From: Opisthorchis felineus
Taxonomy: Eukaryota > Platyhelminthes > Trematoda > Opisthorchiida > Opisthorchiidae
Direction of reading: 5' to 3'
NCBI GenBank assembly: GCA_004794785.1
Contig: SJOL01009693.1
Location: 324,413 to 388,412, forward strand
DNA length: 64,000 nucleotides
Below are positions 9,704 to 58,500 of the stretch, in pieces. Both the position numbers and the translations under genes were made by a program. Every line of letters starts with the position of its first letter. Position 1 is the first letter of the stretch. A model generated the notes under the pieces. The model did no database searches, was not told the DNA's origin, and saw nothing but the letters and a program-made list of their open reading frames with translations.

Positions 9704-11021
9704 CTATGTCCAGCCACGTCGTAGCGCAGAAAAAATGGGGGCAAAACATCTTCTAATATCAGGAACAAGCTTGACTGGTGATGGCTGAGTCAATAAGCAG
9801 TCTGCATTGTTTGAATCGGAGTCGCATGATGGAATTATGGATAAGAAATCGACATGGGGAATCATCTTTGCACCACGATGAAAAATCGTGTAGGTATACG
9901 AACTCAGTGCAATAATCCACCGTTGCACCATAGTAGCAGATGACTTCGCTAGAGATTTTGTAGGATGATGCAAGAACTTTAAGGCCCCGTAATCAGTAGC
10001 AATAGTAAAGTCTGATCCAAAAAGATACTTATTAAGCCGTTTGACAGCCCAATGTACCGCAAGTGATTCTCGTTGAGTTTGAGAATACCCATGTTCGGCT
10101 TTTGAGAGTCGACTGCCAATGCAGATCACCGGTCTACCACACTGTTCAAGGATTGCTCCTATTCCAGTGGCAGAAGCTTCAGTAATGATGGTCGAATGAT
10201 GTTTGGTGGAAAATGGTTTCAAAACAGCTGAAGTTTGAAGATGACCAAGCAATGTACGCAACGTCTTTTCATGGTTAGAGGACCAAGAAAATGGATTGGC
10301 AGATATGACTTCAAACAAGCAACTTGCAGGTTTAGCAAAATTAGGAACAAAACGAGAAAAATATTGAAGTGCTCCTAGAATGGAACGCAGTTCTTGTAGG
10401 TTGGTTGGTGACGGCGCATTTACTAAAGGAGATGGACGGTTTGTATCGGGTTTAAAAAGATTGCCATCCGCAATGTAGCCAAGACATGAGAGTGATGGAA
10501 CTGCAAAAGTGCATTTACCAGGACGAATGGCTACACTGAACTCAGAAAATTGCCTTAGTAAGGACGATAGACGATTATCATGGATAGCTTCATCAGCAGC
10601 ATGCACTATGTCATCATCTTGGTTCGTCTCAACACCCTCCAAATCTTTTGTAATAGTATTCATAAGTTGCTGAAATACAGCTGGTGAAACAATAAGACCA
10701 AAGGAAAGGAGATTGTATCGGAATAACCCAAAAGGTATGTTGATCACCGTAACCTTACTAGAGGCTTCGTCCAGCGGTATCTGAAGATAGGCATCTTTTA
10801 GAACACTTTTTGAAAACCTACTTGAACCTGATAAACGATATGGTACATCTCCGGGCTCTTCTGTAGTGAATGTGCGTTGTAGTAACCGCGTCTTTAACGT
10901 TAGCCTGTAGTCTCCACAAATTCTCATCGGGTTTTAGTGGGGTAACTATCGGAGCTGCTCAATTTGATGATTCAACAGGAGCCAGTATTCCCTTCTCACA
11001 TACTTGCTTGACAAGCAGGTT
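9704..11021 (-). pseudogene. pol: Reverse transcriptase-RNase H of the Ty3 element, broken
   Basis: The RT makes cDNA from element RNA and the RNase H removes the RNA strand. The first about 30 codons lie in the protease frame, with a TGA at 10959-10961. A frame change near 10925 leads into a long open frame from 10927 to the TAG at 9704-9706. In that frame the RT shows ICGDYRLTL (3-11), motif A LKDAYLQIPLD (43-53), motif B NLLSFGLIVSPAVFQ (72-86) and motif C NQDDD (102-106). The residue normally Tyr in the Y-x-D-D motif is Asn. The RNase H shows IITEASATGIGA (247-258), where the first catalytic Asp is replaced by Glu, then the Glu at 287 (TQRESLA) and the Asp at 312 (ATDYGALKF). These changes fit decay, and activity is unlikely. 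Confidence 0.9.
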
Positions 11022-18149: not shown

Positions 18150-18480
18150 GTGATCGGCGAATTCATCAGCTGAGAGGCAGTCAACATGTGATCCCGTGAT
18201 GTGATTTCCATGACTGAAGGATGAGTGACGATATGTCTTGTCTAAGTTAGAGCTAATCGCACTGCTGATCAGCAGCTCACGGCCGTAAGGCTGTGTTCAA
18301 ACCACTAGTCGGGAGGTCGCAAGTTCAAAATACCCTGGATTTTGGTGAAATGCGCCCCGCTAATGATTACCAATAAAGATGAAACAGCTATAAATTTCCT
18401 CACGGATATTCAGCACAGACTGACTTCACTTGGAGGACGAAATCTCCATTGGGAATCCCAAAATCTTCTCAAGCTACCAA
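18150..18480 (+). repeat. Family C SINE-like repeat, copy 1 of a tandem
   Basis: Blocks shared with other copies are CCCGTGATGTGATTTCC, GAGCTAATCGCACTGCTGAT, AACCACTAGTCGGGAGGTCG with CAAGTTCAAAAT, GATGAAACAGCT, then CAGCACAGACTGACTTCACT and GGACGAAATCTCCATT. GGTCGCAAGTTCAAAA resembles a B box, so a tRNA-related origin is likely. Confidence 0.72.
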
Positions 18481-18487
18481 CCATCTA

Positions 18488-18850
18488 AAAGTAGCTCAGA
18501 GGACGAATAAATTCACACGATGAGTGGAACTTCCATCTGAGAAGTCGTCACTCCAGAAGTCAGGTAAAAGGTAACCACGTGATGTAAATTCCCTCAATGA
18601 AAGGTGAGTGTCTAGATGCGAGCTAAATATGCTACTGATCGGCCGCTGGTGTCCAAAAGGTTTATCGTTCAACTACTGACCGCAAGCTTGCGGTTCGGAA
18701 CCCCCTAAAGTTTCACAATTTGTGCACTGCTGATGATTCCCGATAGGAATGAAACAGCTATGCGGTACTTCTCGGTTTTTCGGCGTATACATCAGCTGCA
18801 GGACCAAATCTCCATTGAAATCTCTTTTATTGATCCCAAGAGCAATGACA
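18488..18850 (+). repeat. Family C SINE-like repeat, copy 2 of a tandem
   Basis: This copy follows copy 1 directly. Its head GTAGCTCAGAGG fits an A box. It holds CTGATGA (18730-18736) and GAAA (18751-18754) around TTCCCGATAGGAAT, whose ATTCC/GGAAT can pair. This resembles a hammerhead core, but stem III and a cleavage triplet are not evident. It ends in GGACCAAATCTCCATTGAAA. Confidence 0.72.
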
Positions 18851-21360: not shown

Positions 21361-23143
21361 AGCTTACAAGTGGTTGGCCAGCAGCTTGACAAACCCCAAC
21401 TCAGACAGCATATAGCGTCGCTCATCCTTGAATCATGGAGGGCCACGTGTTTCCCGACTCCTCCGGGAAACATGAAAACTTCACACACCATACAAATTAT
21501 TCTTCTCTTTGAGCTGCTCATATTTTATTCATACTTAATAAGAAACCGGTTGAAGGTCAAAGGTCAGTGAAATCGGGGGACCCCACTGGGGAAAAGTGAC
21601 AGAAATGAGTCGTTTCGATGTGGTTGCAGTAGGAAACAACGTAGGCGGAAGCAAATCTTCCAATTTTCTCACTGTACTGTCATAGCATTGTATATGCTTG
21701 TGGAAGAAAAAAGCTGCAGAAACATGAATTTTCGGTTGTTTTTTTTCTGCAGTTGATCTCACATTGCGTGGTAGTATAAGTGAAGAAAGTGAAACACACC
21801 GGCAAGTAGTGGGGCTGAAGCCAAGATTGGCCAACGGAAGGGAGAAGTCATTCTTTCAGCATTCCCACCTACTGAACTCCTTTTCCAGCTAAAGCTAGTG
21901 ACTGCATACTGAATTGCATGATAAATGGGGTATTGCATACTAATATTTCGTAGGCAAGAATAACTTCTCCTCAGATTTCCTGATATTGTCAACGAAGAAT
22001 CTCATGTTTCTCTGAAAGTTGAAAGTCCAATACCCTTGCCAGACTAGCTGCTTGCTACTTCCATTTCTTTTATTCAAATTTAGAAAACCCAAATAGTTTG
22101 CTTGGTTCGGGGTGACGTGCAAGTGTTCTGGCCTTTCGAGGGAAGGCATGGCGAAGAAGCCCAAGATAGTAGTCAGATGACCGAGATCGCTTTGTGGGAT
22201 GGCGGGCGTCTACAAACCAAATTGGTAACAACTCTTAGGCCACCTAAACAGAATATATAGGGTAATTGGTTAAGATCTGAACAGATGGTCACTTTTGGTG
22301 AGGGAAGTTCCTGTCCAATGCACATCTGCACAATGAGCCTTGGTAGTCCAGTTGGCTGTCCTGCGAATGTTGGCCCTATTAGGTTGCAAGTGAATCTCAG
22401 CTTGTCCAAGATTATAAGATAGACAGATGTGGTAATAAAATGCCGGCGCTTTTCGTAAGGAAGGAAGTTTTGTGATATACAAGGGACTTCGCTTATCTGA
22501 TTAGCCTCAAGAAGAATGAAGCCGATTGTAGGGTGTTGAAGGGTTTTCAGCAACTTTATGAGTAGTGTTCCTTCAAGAAGGTTGAACCTGTTTGCCCGCA
22601 CATATAACGAGTGAGTTTGAGGTTGCATTTGATGAACATTCAAGTCAACATTCAAAGAAATGTAAGTACTAGAATGCAGGCTTCCAGATACTTACGAAGT
22701 TGTAAAGTTGGCTTATTTGGCACGAGACACTCGGTGACCAGAGTCAAAATTTACCAAAGACGGTGAACCTAATCGGGTGAGACCACATTGTATACATCGC
22801 TGGGTATTCCTCCAAACAAGTTGGCTCCAAATCCATTACCTAGTATTAGCCTGGTATCCAAATTTCGTTGACTCATACGGACCTCCTACAGGTCCCGTAG
22901 CAAGAAGGAAGAAGGACGTAAAAACACGGCAAATGTATGGTACAGTAATTACACACTTGTTACATAAAGCAGTTGTCTCGATATCTGCCACAAAGTACAT
23001 TATCTTTCTCATGTGTGCTGCATCTCTCGATTTTTTTTTACCTATGCGGGATTCTCAGGACATTTTCTTTGAATTTCGGTGAGTGAGACAATGAGGAGGT
23101 ATTTCACACAGCAAGGGGATACTTTGGTCAGAGGGAAGTTTTT

Positions 23144-28684: not shown

Positions 28685-28760
28685 AAAAAACATACACGAA
28701 CTACACTCATTTGCACACTAACTTGGTTTTAAGGGAGGACTCAGTTAAATCGCAGCTGAA
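28685..28760 (+). repeat. Family A partial copy, inverted module only
   Basis: ACTACACTCATTTGCACACT and TTGGTTTTAAGGGAGGACTC are the reverse complement of the right end of the neighbouring copy (29030-29075). The two together form a loose foldback across 28685-29080. Confidence 0.5.
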
Positions 28761-28889
28761 ACCTCCGTTCATGAAATTCTTCAAATGAATATGCTGCACA
28801 AAAGCCTCCTCATGATTCAACTGACATGAAATTCGAGATATCATAGTATATCTTCTTGAACGAAACTACTCCTGAAAACTGTTGCTGAC

Positions 28890-29105
28890 GATTATTAAAT
28901 GGCTTTCGACCAGGTTTTCCCTTTTTGGGGTTCATTAGGTAGGCGTAGTCCCCGAGTTTCCGTCAACACTATGTTCTACTTGAACCCAAATTGTACAAAA
29001 ATCGCGAAACAAGATATTCAGATGGATTTTAATTGGGTCTCCCCCGTTAAAACCAAATCGGTGTGCAAATGAATCCCAGTGGAAATTCCCTAGCACGGAG
29101 AAGCT
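28890..29105 (-). repeat. Family A repeat copy, degraded core
   Basis: GGTAGGCGTAGTCCCCGAGT, then TTCCGTCAACACTATGTTCT and a right end with AAAACCAAATCGGTGTGCAA, match the 53.1-kb copy. Both core blocks of the hammerhead module carry changes. Confidence 0.65.
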
Positions 29106-41095: not shown

Positions 41096-41300
41096 CACTA
41101 CTCATGCGGTTGCTGAAAACTCTTCGACGGCCCACAACCAGTTTCTCTCTTCTTGGTGGCGCTGGTCAGATAGTTGCACTTCCCGAGTTTTCGTCAGCCC
41201 TGTGTTGTTCTTGAACCCATGTTGACTGCAGTTAGCGAAGTGCATCCACTTGCGCACTAATTTGGTTTAGGCAGGAGACTCAGATGGATCCGACTGAATC
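41096..41300 (-). repeat. Family A repeat copy, degraded
   Basis: CACTACTCATGCGGTTGCTG and the TCTTCGACGG segment match the family, but the hammerhead core is mutated beyond use. Its far part (CACTAATTTGGTTTAGGCAG) is the inverted orientation of the right module of the 53.1-kb copy, as expected for a family with internal inverted repeats. Confidence 0.6.
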
Positions 41301-44300
41301 AGCTGTTTCGATTCGGCTCAAACCATTTACCTGCGTGGTACTCAGTTCCTGTCGGATCCCGGTAACGCGCTTCTTGAGCGGAATGTTATGAGGTCATCAT
41401 AAGTTAAATTAACTTTATATACCACATCGAAATTCAACAGTGAGATATGGAAAATGTAGATGGTCTTGGTCAAGTCATTTTCTTTCCTTGACCAGTGACT
41501 GCCGGTGACTGCGCGGCATTTGAAAAAAAAACTGAAAACCAGTGAGGAAAAAAAAACAAATCAGTTCCAGAACAGTCCTTGATATTTCAAGCAGAGACAA
41601 AGCTCAAGCAAATCGCGGCTAGCCTGCAGTAGCCAAAACGAGTGTTATCGCAGATTCACCTCTAACTAACTTCAGGCCTTGCGAACCGCCTGTGAATGCT
41701 CGAACGGTGGGCTGGAATGGTCTCAGGTAGGTTTCCTACTGATTTACACGTCTCCCCAACTCGTAATTGGAAATAATTTGAAGCTTGTCACATGTGATCT
41801 CTCTTTCCTTTTTGAAAAACAGAAGTAAAAGCAAAGCTTGAAACGCCTGGTAGTTGCCAGTTTGAAAAATATGTTTTGCCCTGGTAAGGCCAATGTGTTA
41901 GACACCTGTTTGTCTCCCTCCAGCCCTGACTTTAAGTACGTTACCGATTTCGCTTAGTTTGATAGGGACTGTCACCAATAACATTAGTGGCTCATCACTA
42001 TCCTTATCTGAAAGACTGCTTTCGCTTACAATTTGTTGTTATCTTTTAATCTGATCCCTACCTCGAAACAGCCTTGCAACACACCTGCCTGCACTGCAAA
42101 TGCCAACTTGCTCAACTAGCACGGGCCTCATCGAATGAACGGTGGTCAGCTTGGCACGAAGTCGAGTTCTGATTGGCCAACAATGTGTGACCAACAGCTA
42201 ATCACATTTTAGTGTCCGCCTGTTGCCACTCTAATGATGCACCCAGAAAGTAAATGTCTGTTTCTGTTGCCGCTACGCTTGTACAGTTTTTGAGTTGTTT
42301 GGGTACTGAATAGAGTTGGTGTCTTTGGTGGGTGTTTCGTTGAAATCGACAGCTAAAGTGATAAAACCGACCACTGAGCTGAGGCATTGACATATTTTCA
42401 ACACGAAATACTGTAACTTACAGAAATGAGGCCTTTTCAGACTCAGCACACAAACATCATTCGTGAAGCCTCCTCCAGACTTGTCTTGTTGACAATCTTG
42501 AAATGAAAAGCCAATGAAAGCTAAATGAAAGCCAAAAGCACATTGCTCAATTAAACGTTGCCAAGAGCATATGCAAATCTAACCAACTAATCTACACGGA
42601 AATCTTCAAAATGTGCTACAAAGTACATCCTGGGACATGATGTCGGTCAGTCTACATTCTCATTCATAGAAGTTCAAATTATAGACATTTAAACAAAGCT
42701 TCAAACCTCTAGAAAAATTTCCCTGGAGTAGCAGAAATCACTCACACTTGATACTAACGCACGGATCACATTAATCATTTGACGATTCATCTCTAGAGCA
42801 ACCGCGTAGTCGAAAATGGTCGCAAGTACATGATGAAAAACCACAATTTTTACTATTTTGCCGGTGCTATACTATCATCCGAATGGCCTAGTAACCAAGA
42901 TTGTTTTTACCCTTGCGACGAAAACTGATACCTATCGGGCGTTCAATTCAGGCATGGTACCGTCCTCTAAATAAGAGGGAATGGACAACCATGCGGGCGA
43001 TTCCGACCATAAGACTGTCTGTAAGGCCTTCCATGCTGAAGTCTGTTGCTGATTTCCCGTGGTTGGAATGTATTCATTTTGAAATTTATGCTTTGAGTTA
43101 CGCGGTTTCCGTGTGCTTTGAGCGCAAACTCACTCATGGGGTTGACCTTACAAGCTCAGGTAGTTGCAGGTACTACCGTTTACAGCAAATAGTCTGATCT
43201 CTCTTTCTTTGCCCGAGACTACTAAGAACCGATGCCTTGCAAAGAGGCCTAAAGTTGTGTCGGTTACTAATCCGACAACGTTAGTGGCTCACGGGATACG
43301 ATCAGAAAGAACCGGCTGCGACGCCATATATGACAACCATTTAGCAGGTAACGGTTGTAGAACACACATTTCATCGATGAAGTCTTCGTTTTCCCGTAAA
43401 TTGTTGATAGTGATTAGTTCCTGAAGAAAAAAGTATGGCCTTTGGAAGAACGTTTGCGCGCAGTTGAACCGGAGGACATAAGCTGATAACTGAGAGAAGT
43501 ACACTTTATATGGAGTATCCTGTTACTATTTCTGTATGGGACGTACTTGGCGTTGTAGCACGCTTCTTGAAGTTCAGTTTTGTCTGAAAGAAATTACGAC
43601 ATTCATTGGTCTACAATACGCAAATGAATTTTATGGTAAGCTTCACTTTGTGGAAGATGCGTTGGAGACGAGCCTGCTTCAGGGACAAAACGACAAAAGG
43701 TCGATGTGAGCCTTCAGAAGACACCCAGGTTTTTATTACCCGGTAAGTGAACATGACGGGAAAATAACGGGCTTTGTAGCATGGAAGGCCTCCACAAGTG
43801 AAGTCCACGGTAAGTTATGCAGAACTACAAGCCGGATCATTCTGTTACGGTTGACAGATGGTCAGAAAGCCTAACAAACACGCAAGGATTTTTAAATGCC
43901 AGCTGACAATGAAACGCTTTACGAATTCTCTCTTAACTTGGACCCATTGAAATAGAATAAAATGACTGGAGGATATTGGTCGAAGATGTGATTTGTCAGA
44001 TGGTACAGTCCTCGCTAGCTGAGAAAAGCTTAACCAGGCTGTTTTCTAAAGTTAGTTCGCAGCAAAGTTCAGATGCAGGTGAGCACTTGAGCCCAACATC
44101 TCTGGGGACAGAAAAGGGTAGTTGAAGCTACCCTCAGTAGAACGTTCATAGCACCAGCACGAGAAAGGTCCGGTAGTGGTTGAATTCATTGTAGGGTTGC
44201 TGGCATGCATATCTGGTTTCTGATAGGGCCCAGCGCAATATCGTGCTCACTTACTTGGCACAAAAAACTAATGATTCGACACTACCCATAAGGTAGATGA

Positions 44301-45836
44301 AAACCTCTTGATGGCTTATCGGTTTACCTCCTCTGGAGACTCATCATGTGAGCAAATGCCCTGATTTTGCGTCAGTCTCCTCGCTCAATTGATCGGGACA
44401 TGTGTGAAGTTAAACATCCAACTTTGTGCAGCGAGCTGCGATATCCAAAATAACGCTGTAACTGAAAAATGGTGCGCTTTTTTCGGAACACTCGGCCGAA
44501 CAATACCATTCATCCTGTTTTCACATTCCCACATAGCAAATAAGTGAGTTACTCCACTCGTGTTGCCTAGCTGTGGTTGCAGAGAGGTAACACTGTACCC
44601 TTGCGAAGTAGATTTTCTACTTTAATGAATTTGAAAATAGCTCTGAATTTTCCCAAGAATCTAGTTCGTCATTTAGGAGAAGTTTTCTTTCCATTAAGGG
44701 AAACTACTCACAAGGTCGCTTAAAACTCTTCGACAGCCAACGACCGGTTTCGCCCTTGTTGGGGCCCATCAGGTAGGTACGGTCCCCTAGCTTTCGTCAA
44801 ACTTGTGTTCTACTTGAACCAAAATATCATAAACGAGAGATTCACTTGAGTCTTCCATGAAAACCAAATTGGAAGTTTTCTTTGTTTACAGTCGCAGAGA
44901 CGCGTTGTCAAAACCGACCGCACAGTATTCGAGTCACAGTGGATTTGTTGGTCGTTCTGATGTTAACCTTACTATCAGGATCTCATTCGATCACCACTTC
45001 ACCCTCGTTTAATTCGCTCTAGTCATGTCAAGTCCCCCTTTATAATGAAAACAGCGGATTGCTGCGTTTGTTGACGTTCCTTGACGGTCCTTGTTGACGT
45101 TCCTCGCTCATGAACGACTCCGTGTTTTAAAAGAGATCTGGCTGTAACGCTGTCGAATATAGAAGGTAAGGTTTAAGAATATCCTGCCTCCCCCCTCTCA
45201 TTGTTGAACTTTGGACTTCCAATAGCTTGCTGTACGTCCAGTCACCAGTCACAACTTTGCGGTCGATTACAGTGTATGAAGTGGCATCATCCCGCAGAAC
45301 TTGTCTTCTGACATCGTTAATCGCCGAGTTTGTTGAAGCGCCACCTCGTTGAAGATATACTTCCAAAATTTGTTTCGAAGGAAGGCAAACTTGACTTCAT
45401 CATTAAACTCAAGTACGATTGCAGGTGATCCATTTCTGACGTGTTGGCATGATTTTTATGAAAAGATAAAACCACCGCTTAACTGGAAAAAATTGAAATG
45501 ATCTGAATATACTTGAAACTCTATCCAGGAACACTGTATTTTTAGAACATAATAGCCCATGTCACTATCCCCGGACGGGTTCTTACGAGGCAGTATACCG
45601 AGACAAGGTTTCGCTGCAACAGACTTTTCCGAAATACTTCTTCGAGGTTTTTCATTTTTCGTTTATTATCCAAGTCCCAGAGAATCAGCATGATGTACGC
45701 TTGCAATATTATCATTCGCTTTTGAGGAATGAATTTACATGCCGGACAAGAAGTAACCGCCCTTAGAAGATCATGTGAAAACCCTGAGAAATGGTTTCCA
45801 TCTAAGGCAGTCATTCGATCGTTTCATATTTCGTAC
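41301..45836. other. Noncoding DNA around a family A copy
   Basis: Two A-runs lie near 41523-41560. TTGTTGACGTTCCT occurs twice within about 45 bp near 45068-45105. Nothing coding was supported. Confidence 0.5.
44703..44880 (-). repeat. Family A repeat copy
   Basis: This copy starts CTACTCACAAGGTCGC, with CGCCCTTGTTGGGGC as stem II on the plus strand. The core reads CTGATGG instead of CTGATGA, while the GTC triplet is kept. The inverted module is shortened. Confidence 0.68.
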
Positions 45837-49128: not shown

Positions 49129-49345
49129 AACACTACTTACAAGGTCACTGAAAACTCTTCCACAGAGCACGATAGGTTTCGCCCTTCTTGGGGCTCATCA
49201 GATAGGCGAATATCATCCAACTGAAACATGTGCAGCACACTCAGTTGAGAAATATCATAAACAAGGGATTCAGCTGACATTCGGGTGGGCTTCCCGTGAA
49301 AACGAAACTGATATGCAAATGAGCGTATTTGTCGAATCCCATACT
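49129..49345 (-). repeat. Family A repeat copy
   Basis: This copy has the same order as the one at 53.1 kb: CACTACTTACAAGGTC, the hammerhead-like module, then an ATATCATAAACAAGGGATTC segment and a TGCAAATGAGCGTATTT end. It is clearly homologous but diverged. Confidence 0.72.
49150..49208 (-). ncRNA. Hammerhead-like motif, cleavage site mutated
   Basis: CTGATGA (49195-49201), a perfect stem II (GCCC, loop CAAGAA, GGGC) and GAAA (49177-49180) are intact on the minus strand. The base expected as C of the cleavage triplet reads G (TGTGG in place of TGTCG), and stem III is damaged. The copy is probably inactive. Confidence 0.5.
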
Positions 49346-51283: not shown

Positions 51284-53114
51284 GTAAGCATGCAGTACTA
51301 CGACAAAGGATAAGGTTCTTGAGCTTCAGTCAAGACAGCCCATCCGGTGAAACAGTCTCTAGGTATGTGAAGAAATTTTGATCTTCTCAACGATTAGAGA
51401 AAACCTTCCCACAGAATATTGGTAATTAGAGCGACGACATCGTAAAAACTGTTTCAAAACACGGGCAGTTCAAGAGGGAATGGGCAGTTGAAAGAACAGA
51501 AAGACTGAAAAAGCGTGCGGGTTTGTTTATCGGGAACCGACTACCACTTCGTCAGCATGCTTACAGGTTATTTGGAGCAGATACTACCAAAACACAAGTC
51601 ATCGAATGTACCAATAACAGGGAATGCACAAGTGGTTTTTGAAAATATTCAGGTTTATTAGTGTCAGATTCGTTCCAAAAGCGGTTCACTATAGGGTGAT
51701 GTTCGACAGGAATAGAGTCGAATATTCTCATCAAAGTTTCCCATCCAGTCTACGAAAAATGTTGGTTCAGTATAGTAACAGTCACTTTACCATCTATGGA
51801 CTAGAATCCCTCTGGCTAGCTACTACCTATGAAGACTGCAGGCATCATTGCAATCACTGCAAGCAGAAGCAGCCTGGCAGTAAGCAGTCGGCGAACTGAG
51901 CCCCGATACATATTTGCTTAGAAATGGGTTGAACTTGGATCATAATGTTTTCGTCAGTCAGAGAGACGATGAATGCACGCTATTTGCACACGAATGAAAA
52001 AAGTATTTGACACACAAGAAACAAATAGATCTTTTATTCATTCATTCACTATATTCGTGGTACTTAAGCACATTAATGTGTTACCTGTCTCCTGCCAAAA
52101 GGTACACACCTATCCCCAGGGACCATACGAAATCTTATAGTCCCGGAGTGTTTGCTACTAGGGGGATAACGACAGGATGACTTGCATAGAACGAGAAAAT
52201 TATCTATTTCTTTCAACTTCCAAGCAAATACGAGAGGAAAATTAGGGCTAAGAGCACTCCTGCCGGAGGACGCGAGCCTACAATGGTAATATGCCAATAT
52301 AGCCTGACACCAGCATCCGGATGGAGGTAAAATTGCGAAAGACTGGTAGGCCTGTTCTGTCTGACCGGAACCGCCCTGTTTCTATGGCAAACTTTGTACC
52401 GTTTTCCCTCGGGTCAGCTCTAACGTACACAGTTTAGACACCAGACGAGAAGTGGACCCTCCACCAACTAACGCGAAGATTGCACTTACCTAATCCGTTT
52501 ATCTGAGAGGTCCCGATAGATAAGACTTTCCCCAGACCATATAAGTTAGGGAAACTAAGCAACGAAATCATCCTACATCCCTCCAAATAATGGTAGAAAG
52601 TCCCACGCAACCCATAGGTTCATTCAACGGACGACAACCTCTGTGATTTTTAATGGTCTAAATCAGCAGACTTATTTTGCCGATGTGATACTGGTCAAAC
52701 CAATAACCAGGATCAAAACACATGTTGTTGGCTTGCTCAGTTAATTCTGTTTCTCAGACCAATAAGTGAACTCTTCTCAAAGTAGCAGCTTGTTTTATCC
52801 TTACTCTGCTGGTTCACTGTAGTTTAATTTGGTTGGATTCAGATTGAAATAAGAAAGTGTGAGAATTAAGGTGAATGGAGCATTTTTGTTGATTCTGAGA
52901 TGCTCTTCCCTTACTGTGAGTATCCCATAGTGGAAATTTTGTTTTCGGAAAACATCTCCCGCATGATGCGTGTTACATTTTGGAAAGGAAGTTATTTGGC
53001 GAACATTTGTGCTTCGGAATTTCTATGACAGACATCAGTACCCTTGCAGCCGAGATATTGGTGCGAGTATATTGAAGAAACTTGCACTGAGAAGTAAGTT
53101 ACTTTAGATGTAAT
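51284..53114. other. No supported feature
   Basis: If the exon at 51126-51283 is real, this could be its intron. I see no further coding segment or repeat. Confidence 0.45.
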
Positions 53115-53375
53115 ACACTACTCATAAGGTTGCTGAAAATTCTTCGACCGCACACGACCGGTTTCGCCCTAGTCGGGGCTCATCAGGTAGGCGCAGTCCC
53201 TGAGTTTCCGTCAACCTTATGTTCTGCTTGAACCCAAATTGCACGAAATTAGTGAAATACACTCATTTGTTTATAAACATCATAAACGAGAGATTCAGAT
53301 GTGTTCCAGGTGGGTCTCCCGTCAAAACCAAATTGGTATGCAAATGAGTGTATTTCGCTAAGTTACTACACTTTC
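53115..53375 (-). repeat. Family A repeat, best copy
   Basis: This is the most complete of at least six related copies. From high to low coordinates on the minus strand it holds an inverted-repeat module and then a hammerhead-like module ending in TTATGAGTAGTGT. The inverted module has a perfect 15-bp pair, AAATACACTCATTTG at 53255-53269 and its complement at 53341-53355, extended imperfectly to about 22-24 bp. No protein is encoded. Confidence 0.8.
53136..53192 (-). ncRNA. Hammerhead-ribozyme-like motif in family A copy at 53.1 kb
   Basis: On the minus strand the core CTGATGA (53180-53186) is followed by stem II, GCCC-CGACTA-GGGC, then GAAA (53162-53165). Stem III is ACCG...CGGT, followed by the cleavage triplet GTC (53146-53148). 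All invariant core bases of the hammerhead are present, and stems II and III are perfect. Stem I is weak: after the GTC the GAAG pairs with CTAC only partly. Hammerheads are known in trematode repeats and Penelope-like elements. Activity here is untested. Confidence 0.62.
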
Positions 53376-55566: not shown

Positions 55567-58500
55567 CGAAATATCAGCAGATATAAAAGTAGGCCCTCCA
55601 TTCTCATATCAGACCCATTGCGACTTTTGGTAAAATTCTAAGCTATGCGGCGGAGTAAGGAGTTAAATCTGAATACATCAGTTTCACCATCATCAATGGC
55701 TAGCTTGTGAAAACCAAATCGCTGTATACCATCTACGGTCCACTTCTATACGGTTATGCCAATAAAGTACCCGCGGACGCAGTATGTTAGCAGAACGGCT
55801 GTGATTCATTTAGCCAGACCTGTCGCTCGGTGATAAGTACAATATGGAAAACACCAAACCATTTTCTAAACGGTCTTAAGCAAAAGTCGAGTTTGGAAGA
55901 GCGGAATTCTTTGAGATGGCGCCTGAGCTGTTTAATCAAGCTTCCGAAGTTTTGAAAGGAATATGAACTAGACTTGTCGCGGGAACCAATACAAGCACAA
56001 TGCGCTCTGCATTTCAACAGGCCAAAGGTGCTTAAAAGCAAACGTCTGCTTCCGAATGCTTGGGAAATAAACTCGTTTCTATTAGGGATTGTATTTCACC
56101 ACGTCAGGACAAATGTATTTACTGCTATTGACTATTTGGACATATCACGAAACCCGCCGAAGAAAGGATACATCATACTCAGGGCCACGTTGGTCCTACC
56201 GAAAGGCATTCATCCTTGATAGTGCCAAACCCTCTAGTTTTCATCTATTCTACAATGACCAAATACAATATGGTGAGAAACGATATAATGCAGTATAATA
56301 AGCCATAGTTTGATGTAACATGACATGACATGATATAAAGACCTTCCCACACAGTGACATATAAAAACGTGACGATCACATGCAGCAGCTAGAGCCTACT
56401 TAGCATTACTGTCAGGGAGGGAATGCCCAACGACTAAAGTTTCGTGCGTTCGCGCAGTACCAACTGCGCAAAACTGCAGTCGAATTGGACCCAAGCTGGT
56501 TGAAGCAGTGTACTTTTCGTAAAATATTGCCATACATGAATATGTTGCCCACGCCAACATATACTGACATTCGCAGTCAACCAAGGAGTAAAGCCATGAA
56601 ATTCCATGTTGCTGTATACAACAGTTATTTTAGCCACCTTTATTCGAAAGTTGATATAGCCAAAATACGACCTCTTGATTGTTTCGATATTATGGTCAGA
56701 GGATAGCGCGCGCACAGTGACATTGTCGCCTTCTGGATAAATAACCATGTTTACAGTGAGCAGGTCTAGAAAATAAACCGATCATTTCGGACCACCTTTA
56801 ACCATCGCGCATTGCTCTACCCGGTCCTTATGTCGTTCGCTCTTCTGTTATAAGGATTAGGTTTTTTCAGCGGATAATTGCTTTGGATGTTTACTAGGTT
56901 GCGTGGTCACAGAATAACAGGTGGCCCAGCAAGCACGTTCGATAGAAACTAAACCAAGCGGAGCTAAGTTACTTAAGTCAGGTGACATGAGTCGCTGCCG
57001 TATCTATTCGACCAGACTAAATTCAGCGAATGCAGTAGCCATTTTACTGTTTAGAGGGCCAGAGTCCATCTAACCCAGATGCCCTCCAACGCATACGAAT
57101 ATTTCGGACGGTACACTCATTGATCAGCCCTCAAAATTGTCGCCCCAACAAATAGCGTGTGGGTTGGTCTGTTTCACATTGCAGCTACGCTATTTTTCAT
57201 CCTATTGCAAACACTAACGAACGTTGTTATGACTGTAGCCTGGACTAACTTACTGTCCGAAACAAACCAAGCCCGCTGACAGTGTATCTTCAAGGCTTAT
57301 TGTGAGATAATTGGCAAGTAGACTTGAATCAATGGATTAAGCATATTATGTGGTTTCCTCTTAGGGAATCGACTGTTCCAGGAAACACCAAATGTCTTTC
57401 CTTTTTTTGGAAAATCTCAACGGATGTTTACGAAACTGTTTCCTGGACGTGTGGCGCTCCATGGAAAAAGAAATATTGCACTGTTCAAACACAACCCGTA
57501 AACAAATTTTACCGCATTACCGAAGCAAAAGCTAGACTACCCCTCAATAGACTGCCGATATATTTCTGACGAAATTGTTTGCCGGATGAATTTTCCCTTC
57601 GTTATAGAAACAACAGGCAACTAGTCAGGTTGTCAGTCTCGTGGACTTTTAAAAGCGGCACGTTCCGCCAACCCAGTTACGCACGTGACCCTAAATGCAT
57701 GTGATTACTCCGCAACCCCCTTCATGCATATGGACACACCTTGGCTTTCATGGTTCCGGAAAAAAGCAGGCATTTTGAACAATTCGCACGTGTTCTACCC
57801 TGGTGAATGCAGATATATCATTATGTTCACGCAAGTGCATACGTGTGTAGCATGGCTGTGTGCGCGTATGAATATGTATGATCGTATAACTGTGAATGCT
57901 GCTCGAAATCTAGTAATATAGTTAATAACTGCAATGCGTGGTAAAAATGACATTGTAGAAAAATAGTAATAAAAATCTCACGCAGTTCGAGACAAGTGGG
58001 TAGAGTCTTAATCAGGAATCGGTGAGATTTCATTAAAAGTGTGCAAAAATATGAGGAAATGTCTTCGGTGGTGTTGGCGATGTACTCAATAAGTGGACGT
58101 GAGCAGGGAGAAAACAGTTACGGAAAGAAAAACCAGTGAAAACAAACGAACTAGGAGAAGAGAAGGAATGTGAGATGATAAAAAAAAGTCTTGCGATCAG
58201 TGTTTGAGAAACAATTCGATCCGTTTTGTGGGACCGAATTCATAAGCAAACAGACAAGGCAACTGCTGCTGACATCACAAGAACACAACGGAGTGAGGCA
58301 AGGCCAGTAATAACTGCGAGAATCAATCCAATCAATAAAAAGGAAAATGATCATAAATCATCTGCTGAAAACAGTATCAAGAGCTAAGGCAGACTGAGAG
58401 GGTAAATGAGCATTACATCAGGTCACGAAGACCGCAGAAGGTGGAATGCAACCACGATATCCGCTAAATCGGCGACTATCTACATGAATGGACTAAGCTT

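Follow-up and report, generated by a model that had tools for sequence, protein, structure and literature searches.

A dispersed, hammerhead-bearing repeat with fixed ends in Opisthorchis felineus, a probable retrozyme

Copies in the window and their hammerhead motif

The window, a stretch of 64,000 nucleotides of the O. felineus genome (324413-388412 of its contig), carries on its minus strand a retrozyme-like element built of a direct arm, which holds a hammerhead motif and ends at a site called T1, and an inverted arm, which ends at a second site, T2 (Table 1). The first-pass annotation had described an added inverted-repeat module in this place. The inverted repeat is real, but mapping on the repeat unit showed that it is the element's own 5' part in inverted orientation, and a separate module was rejected. 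The 9-bp duplication TAAGTTACT that flanks the element was seen by eye; the automatic test gave 5 bp, and it is not among the 37 scored duplications discussed below. Position 56965 of the window has a third occurrence of the same nine letters. The seven or so copies in 32 kb that had been counted earlier were recovered by blast and nhmmer, with matches at 22.5, 28.9, 41.1, 44.7, and 49.1 kb, to which a weak match at 44.3 kb is to be added. The window also contains a minus-strand frame with reverse transcriptase (RT) and RNase H domains that is Gypsy-like by eye (9704-10927) and, on the plus strand, two related occurrences of a further hammerhead-like stretch at 18360 and 18730 (CTGATGATTCCCGATAGGAATGAAACAGCTAT at 18730). 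The repeat gave no match in a phage collection.

Table 1. Positions of the retrozyme-like element, its parts, and its sister copies in the window
Feature	Position	Strand	Remarks
Retrozyme-like element	53104..53358	-	255 nt between target duplications; T2 inverted arm at high, T1 direct arm and hammerhead at low coordinates
Target site duplication beside T1 end	53095..53103	+	TAAGTTACT, by eye
Target site duplication beside T2 end	53359..53367	+	TAAGTTACT, by eye
Direct (T1) arm	53110..53269	-	Unit positions 231 to 83, end at site T1
Inverted (T2) arm	53259..53358	+	Unit ~150 to T2 (~251); blast extends to 53377, beyond the duplication
Type I hammerhead core	53150..53192	-	RF00163, 31.2 bits, E 5.6e-6 in 401 bases (Infernal); 86-copy alignment
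CUGAUGA of the hammerhead	53186-53180	-	
Hammerhead stem I			GCCUAC/GUGUGC, one mismatch; family form GUGGGC
Remaining hammerhead elements			Stem II GCCC/GGGC perfect, GAAA, CCGG; predicted cut after 53156
Long outer stem I, 5' side	53193..53221	-	CATAAGGTTG... arm; inverted repeat, fold
Long outer stem I, 3' side	53123..53151	-	...CAACCTTATG arm; inverted repeat, fold
Decayed copy	22483..22567	+	Unit 300 to 77
Decayed copy	28697..29072	-	T2-type end 28697; inverted arm 28997-29072
Decayed copy	41096..41300	-	Unit 183 to 77
Weak, old copy of hammerhead region	44278..44378	-	nhmmer E 5.1e-7
Copy with hammerhead and inverted remainder	44703..44871	-	Hammerhead 44703-44825; remainder by eye
12-bp duplication flanking the preceding copy	44679-44690 and 44872-44883		GAAGTTTTCTTT
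Copy with hammerhead and inverted arm	49131..49330	-	Hammerhead 49131-49208 (-), inverted arm 49230-49330 (+)

The presence of CTGATGA, a GCCC/GGGC stem II, and GAAA in hammerhead order on the minus strand was borne out by the letters and by the alignment that Infernal made with the Rfam model Hammerhead_1 (RF00163). In the core test with this model, CUGANGA, GAAA, and the cleavage triplet were found in order and stem I was open, so that the features of type I are present. The check that had been proposed gave a divided result, the score being far above background and compensatory change being thin (see below). The 31.2 bits are less than the gathering threshold of 34, which is reached by no match in the whole 64,000-nt window. 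In the Infernal alignment, cleavage falls at the first GTC (GAAAC-CG-GUC), and stem I has 6 bp, GCCUAC/GUGGGC. Stem III in this register consists of one A-U pair closing CCGG, and a closed stem III of the usual size is absent. The 4-bp stem III (ACCG/CGGT) with the second GTC, as drawn in the first-pass annotation, was in the wrong register, its third pair being non-standard in 83 of 86 aligned copies. Hammerheads with a small stem III have been published (PMC7229834 and PMC7761336, both in part).

For the window copy, the predicted folding energy of the 106-nt hammerhead region is -44 kcal/mol (z -4.4). In the minimum-energy structure of the family's majority unit, stems I and II are kept and the CUG of the core is paired with the CGG of the ACCGGU palindrome, and the catalytic fold is therefore not the predicted optimum. 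As ACCGGU is palindromic, two ribozymes could pair with each other, as newt hammerheads do. The dimer-active hammerheads of newt and axolotl likewise have a very short stem III and a palindromic loop (PMC7229834, in part); they differ from the fluke motif, with its single A-U pair closing CCGG, in that dimer activity is described there and is a predicted possibility here. Conservation of the palindrome was considered as support for a dimer and rejected, as there was no excess in either of two sets of 36 copies: 11 % of its cells differ against 8.1 % in the rest in the first set (L023-L051), and 5.6 % against 6.0 % in the second (L053-L081). It can be stated with high confidence that the hammerhead motif in this retrozyme-like element is real.

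A dispersed family of 307-nt units

The family is dispersed through the 630-Mb genome as units of 307 nt, either single or in tandem. Its majority sequence, drawn from 42 full units whose rows include 15 identical duplicates, has a GC content of 46.6 %, the median divergence being 1.8 %. As judged from sequence searches, the family is large; the DNA searches for copies scored 40 of 3,974, 40 of 7,207, and 40 of 3,630 candidates. A genome search with RF00163, in which 74 of 115,518 candidates were scored, gave at least 21 matches, 16 of them above gathering, and the family makes up 16 of the 21 and 13 of the 16, respectively. The earlier description of a hammerhead core in a dispersed repeat, which can be compared with Sm-alpha and with the hammerheads linked to Penelope-like elements (PLEs), was right. 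Five RF00163 matches lie outside the family (L002, L009, L010, L019, and L021); L002 has a GGTTCGAACTCC stretch upstream that resembles a Pol III B box by eye. Three of the five, L002, L010, and L021, are presumably nearer to the Sm-alpha type, to judge by eye. Loci that were chosen by DNA search rarely pass the Rfam gathering threshold (one of 20 and none of 20 in two sets, each comprising 20 of 30 loci), and with Hammerhead_HH9, for which gathering is 52, a score of 36 bits is reached by most of the units in the young arrays.

Arrays of five full units each, running off the locus, are present at L059, L063, and L076. Tandem units that are identical over 307 nt, with 0 mismatches, were seen across unlinked contigs (L059, L062, L063, L070, L076, and L081), and in five of these six loci, there are 5-15 base differences in one adjoining full unit. 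The identity may reflect gene conversion, an assembly artefact, or a rolling-circle burst that recently went into older copies. The unit further contains an AUG, inside CUGAUGAG, that opens a frame of 21 codons, MSPKKGETGRGLSKNFQQPYE (unit positions 10-75), and the predicted cut lies 27-28 nt after the A of this AUG. The spacing between cut and AUG is near that published for PLEs, whereas in the PLE PAc, the start codon comes after G8.

Structural support for the hammerhead was examined in an alignment for which 86 of 93 distinct copies were given to the aligner. In stems I and II and the long outer stem I, 92.4 % of the cells are paired, as compared to 36 to 47 % in slid controls. Only 1 of 500 shuffles reached the observed number of both-sided cells over the whole structure, and 3 of 500 reached the observed covariation score; the 16 both-sided cells observed are, however, equaled or exceeded by the slid controls, which have 16 to 24. 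Covariation support for the hammerhead stems is weak, and it is the percentage of paired cells that stands out. Compensatory changes, which had been named as a touchstone for stems II and III, were found in stem II, albeit thinly: both sides have changed in 7 of the 86 sequences, 6 of which come from loci picked with the hammerhead model. Stem III as originally drawn is without support.

The core had also been held to be the best conserved part of several copies. A trend in this direction is seen in both 36-copy sets. The 12 core positions differ in 5.6 % of the cells in the first set (L023-L051) and the non-hammerhead rest in 8.1 %, with a Fisher p of 0.07. The corresponding figures for the second set (L053-L081) are 4.4 and 6.0 %, but stems I and II are more variable there than the rest, at 8.5 and 8.3 %. 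Stronger conservation of the ribozyme core is to be regarded as a trend only.

Metazoan non-LTR retrozymes with type I hammerheads were defined in PMC7229834, which in the part considered here also names platyhelminths as carriers of similar repeats. The fluke family resembles the elements described there (PMC7229834, in part) in having a noncoding unit of about 300 nt, which occurs from single to multimeric and carries a type I hammerhead, in sharing its genome with PLEs, in its GC content below 50 %, and in target duplications of more than 4 bp. The 307-nt unit falls within the range of about 170-400 nt; its GC content is slightly above the 45 % in the legend to Figure 1 of that paper, as far as that source was available. 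Unlike the metazoan retrozymes of PMC7229834, a paper in which the word "inverted" has 0 occurrences, the fluke element has mostly fixed outer ends, and its copies are commonly head to head. No fold-back or head-to-head retrozymes and no liver-fluke retrozymes were encountered in the titles and abstract openings surveyed, a scope that takes in few subscription papers. The SINE-like Sm-alpha of schistosomes (335 bp), as described in part of PMC8490949, is likewise dispersed in a fluke genome and carries a type I hammerhead; the likeness is one of description.

Fixed ends, head-to-head copies, and target sites

In the first mapping of copies onto the unit, 51 of 78 clusters consisted of two segments. 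Fifty were arranged head to head (-/+), one was -/-, and none was tail to tail (+/-). T1 (limits 40-110) is joined with T2 (225-270) in 44 of the 50 head-to-head clusters, by 41 distinct inner junctions; these counts and those of the clusters include L052, which is the L008 locus, and L012, a near copy of L011. Because there are 41 distinct inner junctions among 44, nearly all of the head-to-head copies represent separate events. Three further pairs lie outside the mapped loci, one of them tail to tail (C1242) and two head to head (C1016 and C1296).

A cleaned mapping of 81 copies excluded L052, L012, copies 45 bases or less from the end of a locus, and clusters with a summed blast score below 110; seven spurious clusters were dropped, six of 12 nt that arose from self-overlapping flank windows and one of 23 nt. 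Of 137 outer 3'-type ends, 120 lie at T1 (69) or T2 (51), and the joining of T1 to T2, found in 43 of the 81 copies, is the commonest arrangement. The T1 end is located at about unit position 84-87, where it is often overrun by the alignment, and T2 at about 251. One set of loci had been picked with a fold-back query, and the sets obtained with RF00163 and with the unit as query were therefore checked apart. The former (15 copies) has five copies with T1 and T2 and 20 of 23 outer 3'-type ends at either site; the latter (28 copies) has 13 such copies and 38 of 48 outer ends at T1 or T2. The presence of fixed 3'-type ends on both sides of the insertions is a conclusion of high confidence, and two-ended priming is the best reading of it. 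The local folds of T1 and T2 revealed no common hairpin; by eye, T1 (AGTGYATTACG) resembles T2 (AGTGTATTTCG).

The inner end of the T2 arm is at 162-169 in 22 of 44 cases, and plain 5' ends are at 163-183 in 12 of 25. These positions suggest that the template RNA starts near unit 163-180, the alternative being that the enzyme stops there.

A target duplication, called at a score of 8 or more, was detected in 37 of the 81 copies, as compared to 2.3 % of 1,595 mismatched pairs. Its length ranges from 8 to 16 bp and is 12-14 bp in 26 of the 37. The left flank has A at -4, -3, and -2 in 19, 26, and 23 of the 37 copies, and the right flank has T at +2, +3, and +4 in 25, 30, and 21. The target pattern is thus symmetric, AAAN[TSD]NTTT, with both nicks just 5' of NTTT when each strand is read, although the exact borders of the nicks are blurred by 1-2 shared bases.

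Penelope-like elements and the proposed route of insertion

A genome search with PF01541 gave at least six matches (150 of 553 candidates scored). By eye, five of the six GIY-YIG matches look to be in Penelope-type frames, the sixth (L082) looking cellular. By eye, L084 and L085 have RT-like frames and L083 has a scrap of one; none was seen in L087 and L088. Pfam found RVT_1 in L085 at 26.5 bits (cut-off 29.6, E 6.2e-6), upstream of GIY-YIG at 28.6 bits. In all three copies of one PLE family (L084, L085, and L088), the 3' end lies 76 nt from the initial base of a CUGAUGA that is followed by a hammerhead-like stem II; the T1 end of the retrozyme lies 78-81 nt from the start of its own CUGAUGA. 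These PLE ends are blast ends, and L085 and L088 align with each other for 15 nt more. Both stop matching L084 at the 76-nt end, and the inverted arm of L085 starts at the same point. In two of the five PLE loci, an inverted stretch of the element's 3' end is present on its 5' side (59 nt in L085 and 102 nt in L083), whereas no inverted arm was found in L084, L087, and L088 within the stretches examined. L085 has a candidate 12-bp duplication at 473 and 2231, with 29 bases between its first copy and the inverted arm. Blast of the unit against the PLE ends of L083-L085 revealed no shared sequence.

Two scraps of the retrozyme, of 34 and 51 nt, lie on the other side of the PLE in L084. At about 1000-1470 of L011 and L012, which are 97 % identical neighbours on one contig, a retrozyme copy adjoins a decayed RT with Penelope-like motifs, as seen by eye. 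Downstream of the PLE frames, L084 and L085 have a hammerhead-like motif of which candidate decayed copies were also noticed in the window (16458, 49609, and 55448 on the plus and 49607 on the minus strand), at 6 to 12 substitutions in 41 letters.

The protein of the PLE PAc cuts both target strands and extends each of them; it initiates at internal sites, which do not differ between the strands, and its template is unprocessed (uncut) RNA (PMC11167929). Rotifer PLEs have head-to-head pseudo-LTRs (pLTRs), tails, and duplications of 8-10 bp (PMC3846280, in part). Features that the fluke repeat has in common with PLEs (PMC11167929; PMC3846280, in part) are inverted ends arranged head to head, an insertion end formed by a tail beyond the hammerhead, partial tandem units, duplicated target sites, an internal start of reverse transcription, and the cutting and extension of both strands, the last two being read, for the fluke, from the structure of the insertions. 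The fluke sites T1 and T2, unlike the PAc start sites, are 140 nt apart and serve different strands. They also depart from those of PLEs in not being AC-rich (by eye), and the PLEs of this genome have hammerheads of another sequence. The unit as a PLE proper was rejected: 307 nt is too small for an RT plus GIY-YIG ORF, and the frame of the core AUG has 21 codons. It is perhaps a PLE passenger.

The repeat is probably a non-autonomous, noncoding retrozyme of the metazoan type, and target-primed reverse transcription from two ends is its probable mode of insertion. The enzyme is most likely a Penelope-like RT/GIY-YIG protein encoded elsewhere in the genome. A PLE-type enzyme may be proposed as the helper with moderate confidence; it is the shape of the insertions that points to it, because the blast of the unit at the PLE ends of L083-L085 found no sequence in common. 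An array of units would be transcribed, and the hammerhead, perhaps as a dimer formed via the ACCGGU palindrome, may cut the transcript so that RNA circles are freed. The helper would make a staggered break with 3' overhangs of 12-14 nt by nicking 5' of NTTT on each strand, which is the pattern observed at the target sites. Synthesis of cDNA would be primed by one 3'-OH at T1, which is 78-81 nt away from where CUGAUGA begins, and by the other at T2, which lies on the RNA about 140 nt upstream of T1; both sites are observed as fixed ends. Joining of the two cDNAs head to head would then produce the inverted arm and the target duplication that the copies display.

A more specific reading, which is offered tentatively as a possibility, is that two start sites for reverse transcription are built into the element. 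A helper acting as a symmetric dimer would hold the two 3' overhangs of a single break and prime one of them at T1 and the other at T2 of one uncut linear RNA, starting at about 163-180, and the cDNAs would be joined. The template would in that case not be a circle opened by the hammerhead, and insertion would be concerted rather than an accidental inversion.

It is somewhat unlikely, but compatible with the preferred retrozyme explanation, that the unit, instead of being an unrelated retrozyme, is the pLTR of a PLE family that survives as tandem pLTRs without the coding part. The distance from CUGAUGA to the 3' end, 78-81 nt here and 76 nt in one of the genome's PLEs, agrees with such an origin, as does the AUG in CUGAUGAG with its 21 codons and the cut 27-28 nt after its A; this frame is short, however, and possibly due to chance. 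The codons do not correspond either, since G8 precedes the start codon in PAc and is the G of the AUG here. Moreover, a PLE with a matching pLTR was not found, the blast of the unit at the PLE ends of L083-L085 being negative. The mismatches with the start codon of PAc and with its strand-independent start sites lower the confidence in the preferred explanation, in the pLTR origin, and in the reading with two start sites.

That the repeat is a hammerhead-bearing SINE moved by an ordinary fluke LINE, the inverted arms being 5' inversions caused by twin priming, is distinctly unlikely. A LINE can also leave inverted 5' ends, and duplications of 12-14 bp together with 5' inversions are compatible with target-primed reverse transcription of the LINE type. 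There is a LINE-like RT fragment in the window that has fluke relatives; over 54 % of the query it is 97 % identical to a protein of Clonorchis sinensis, for example, and over 49 % it is 89 % identical to one of Opisthorchis viverrini. Against the involvement of a LINE speaks the second site, which is fixed at T2 (51 of 137 outer ends; T1 and T2 together in 43 of 81 copies), where scattered internal priming would be expected, and also the target preference, which is found outside the duplication and has the same form on either strand. Spread of a satellite DNA by recombination and inversion, without reverse transcription, is highly improbable: it would agree with the tandem arrays of identical units in several contigs but was rejected on the fixed ends of the dispersed copies and on their target duplications (37 of 81). 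A miniature inverted-repeat DNA transposon with hammerhead-like letters by chance is almost certainly the wrong reading, as the inverted arms and flanking duplications that recall one come with T1 and T2 ends that differ from each other, and so without identical terminal inverted repeats, with arms of varying length, 41 distinct inner junctions among 44, duplications of no fixed length (8 to 16 bp), and tandem units, and it was rejected in the main on its ends and duplications.

What mobilises retrozymes in animals was left open by two papers of 2020, as far as the parts considered here go (PMC7229834 and PMC7761336). PLEs are put forward as a strong candidate in PMC7229834 and similarly in PMC7761336, both in part, on the grounds of their type I hammerheads, their tandem occurrence, and the genomes that they share with retrozymes. 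The fluke family has enough copies with clean ends and target duplications for its start sites, target preference, and end structure to be set against those of the PLEs that share its genome, and it bears on the question of whether circles or uncut linear RNA serve as the template for insertion.
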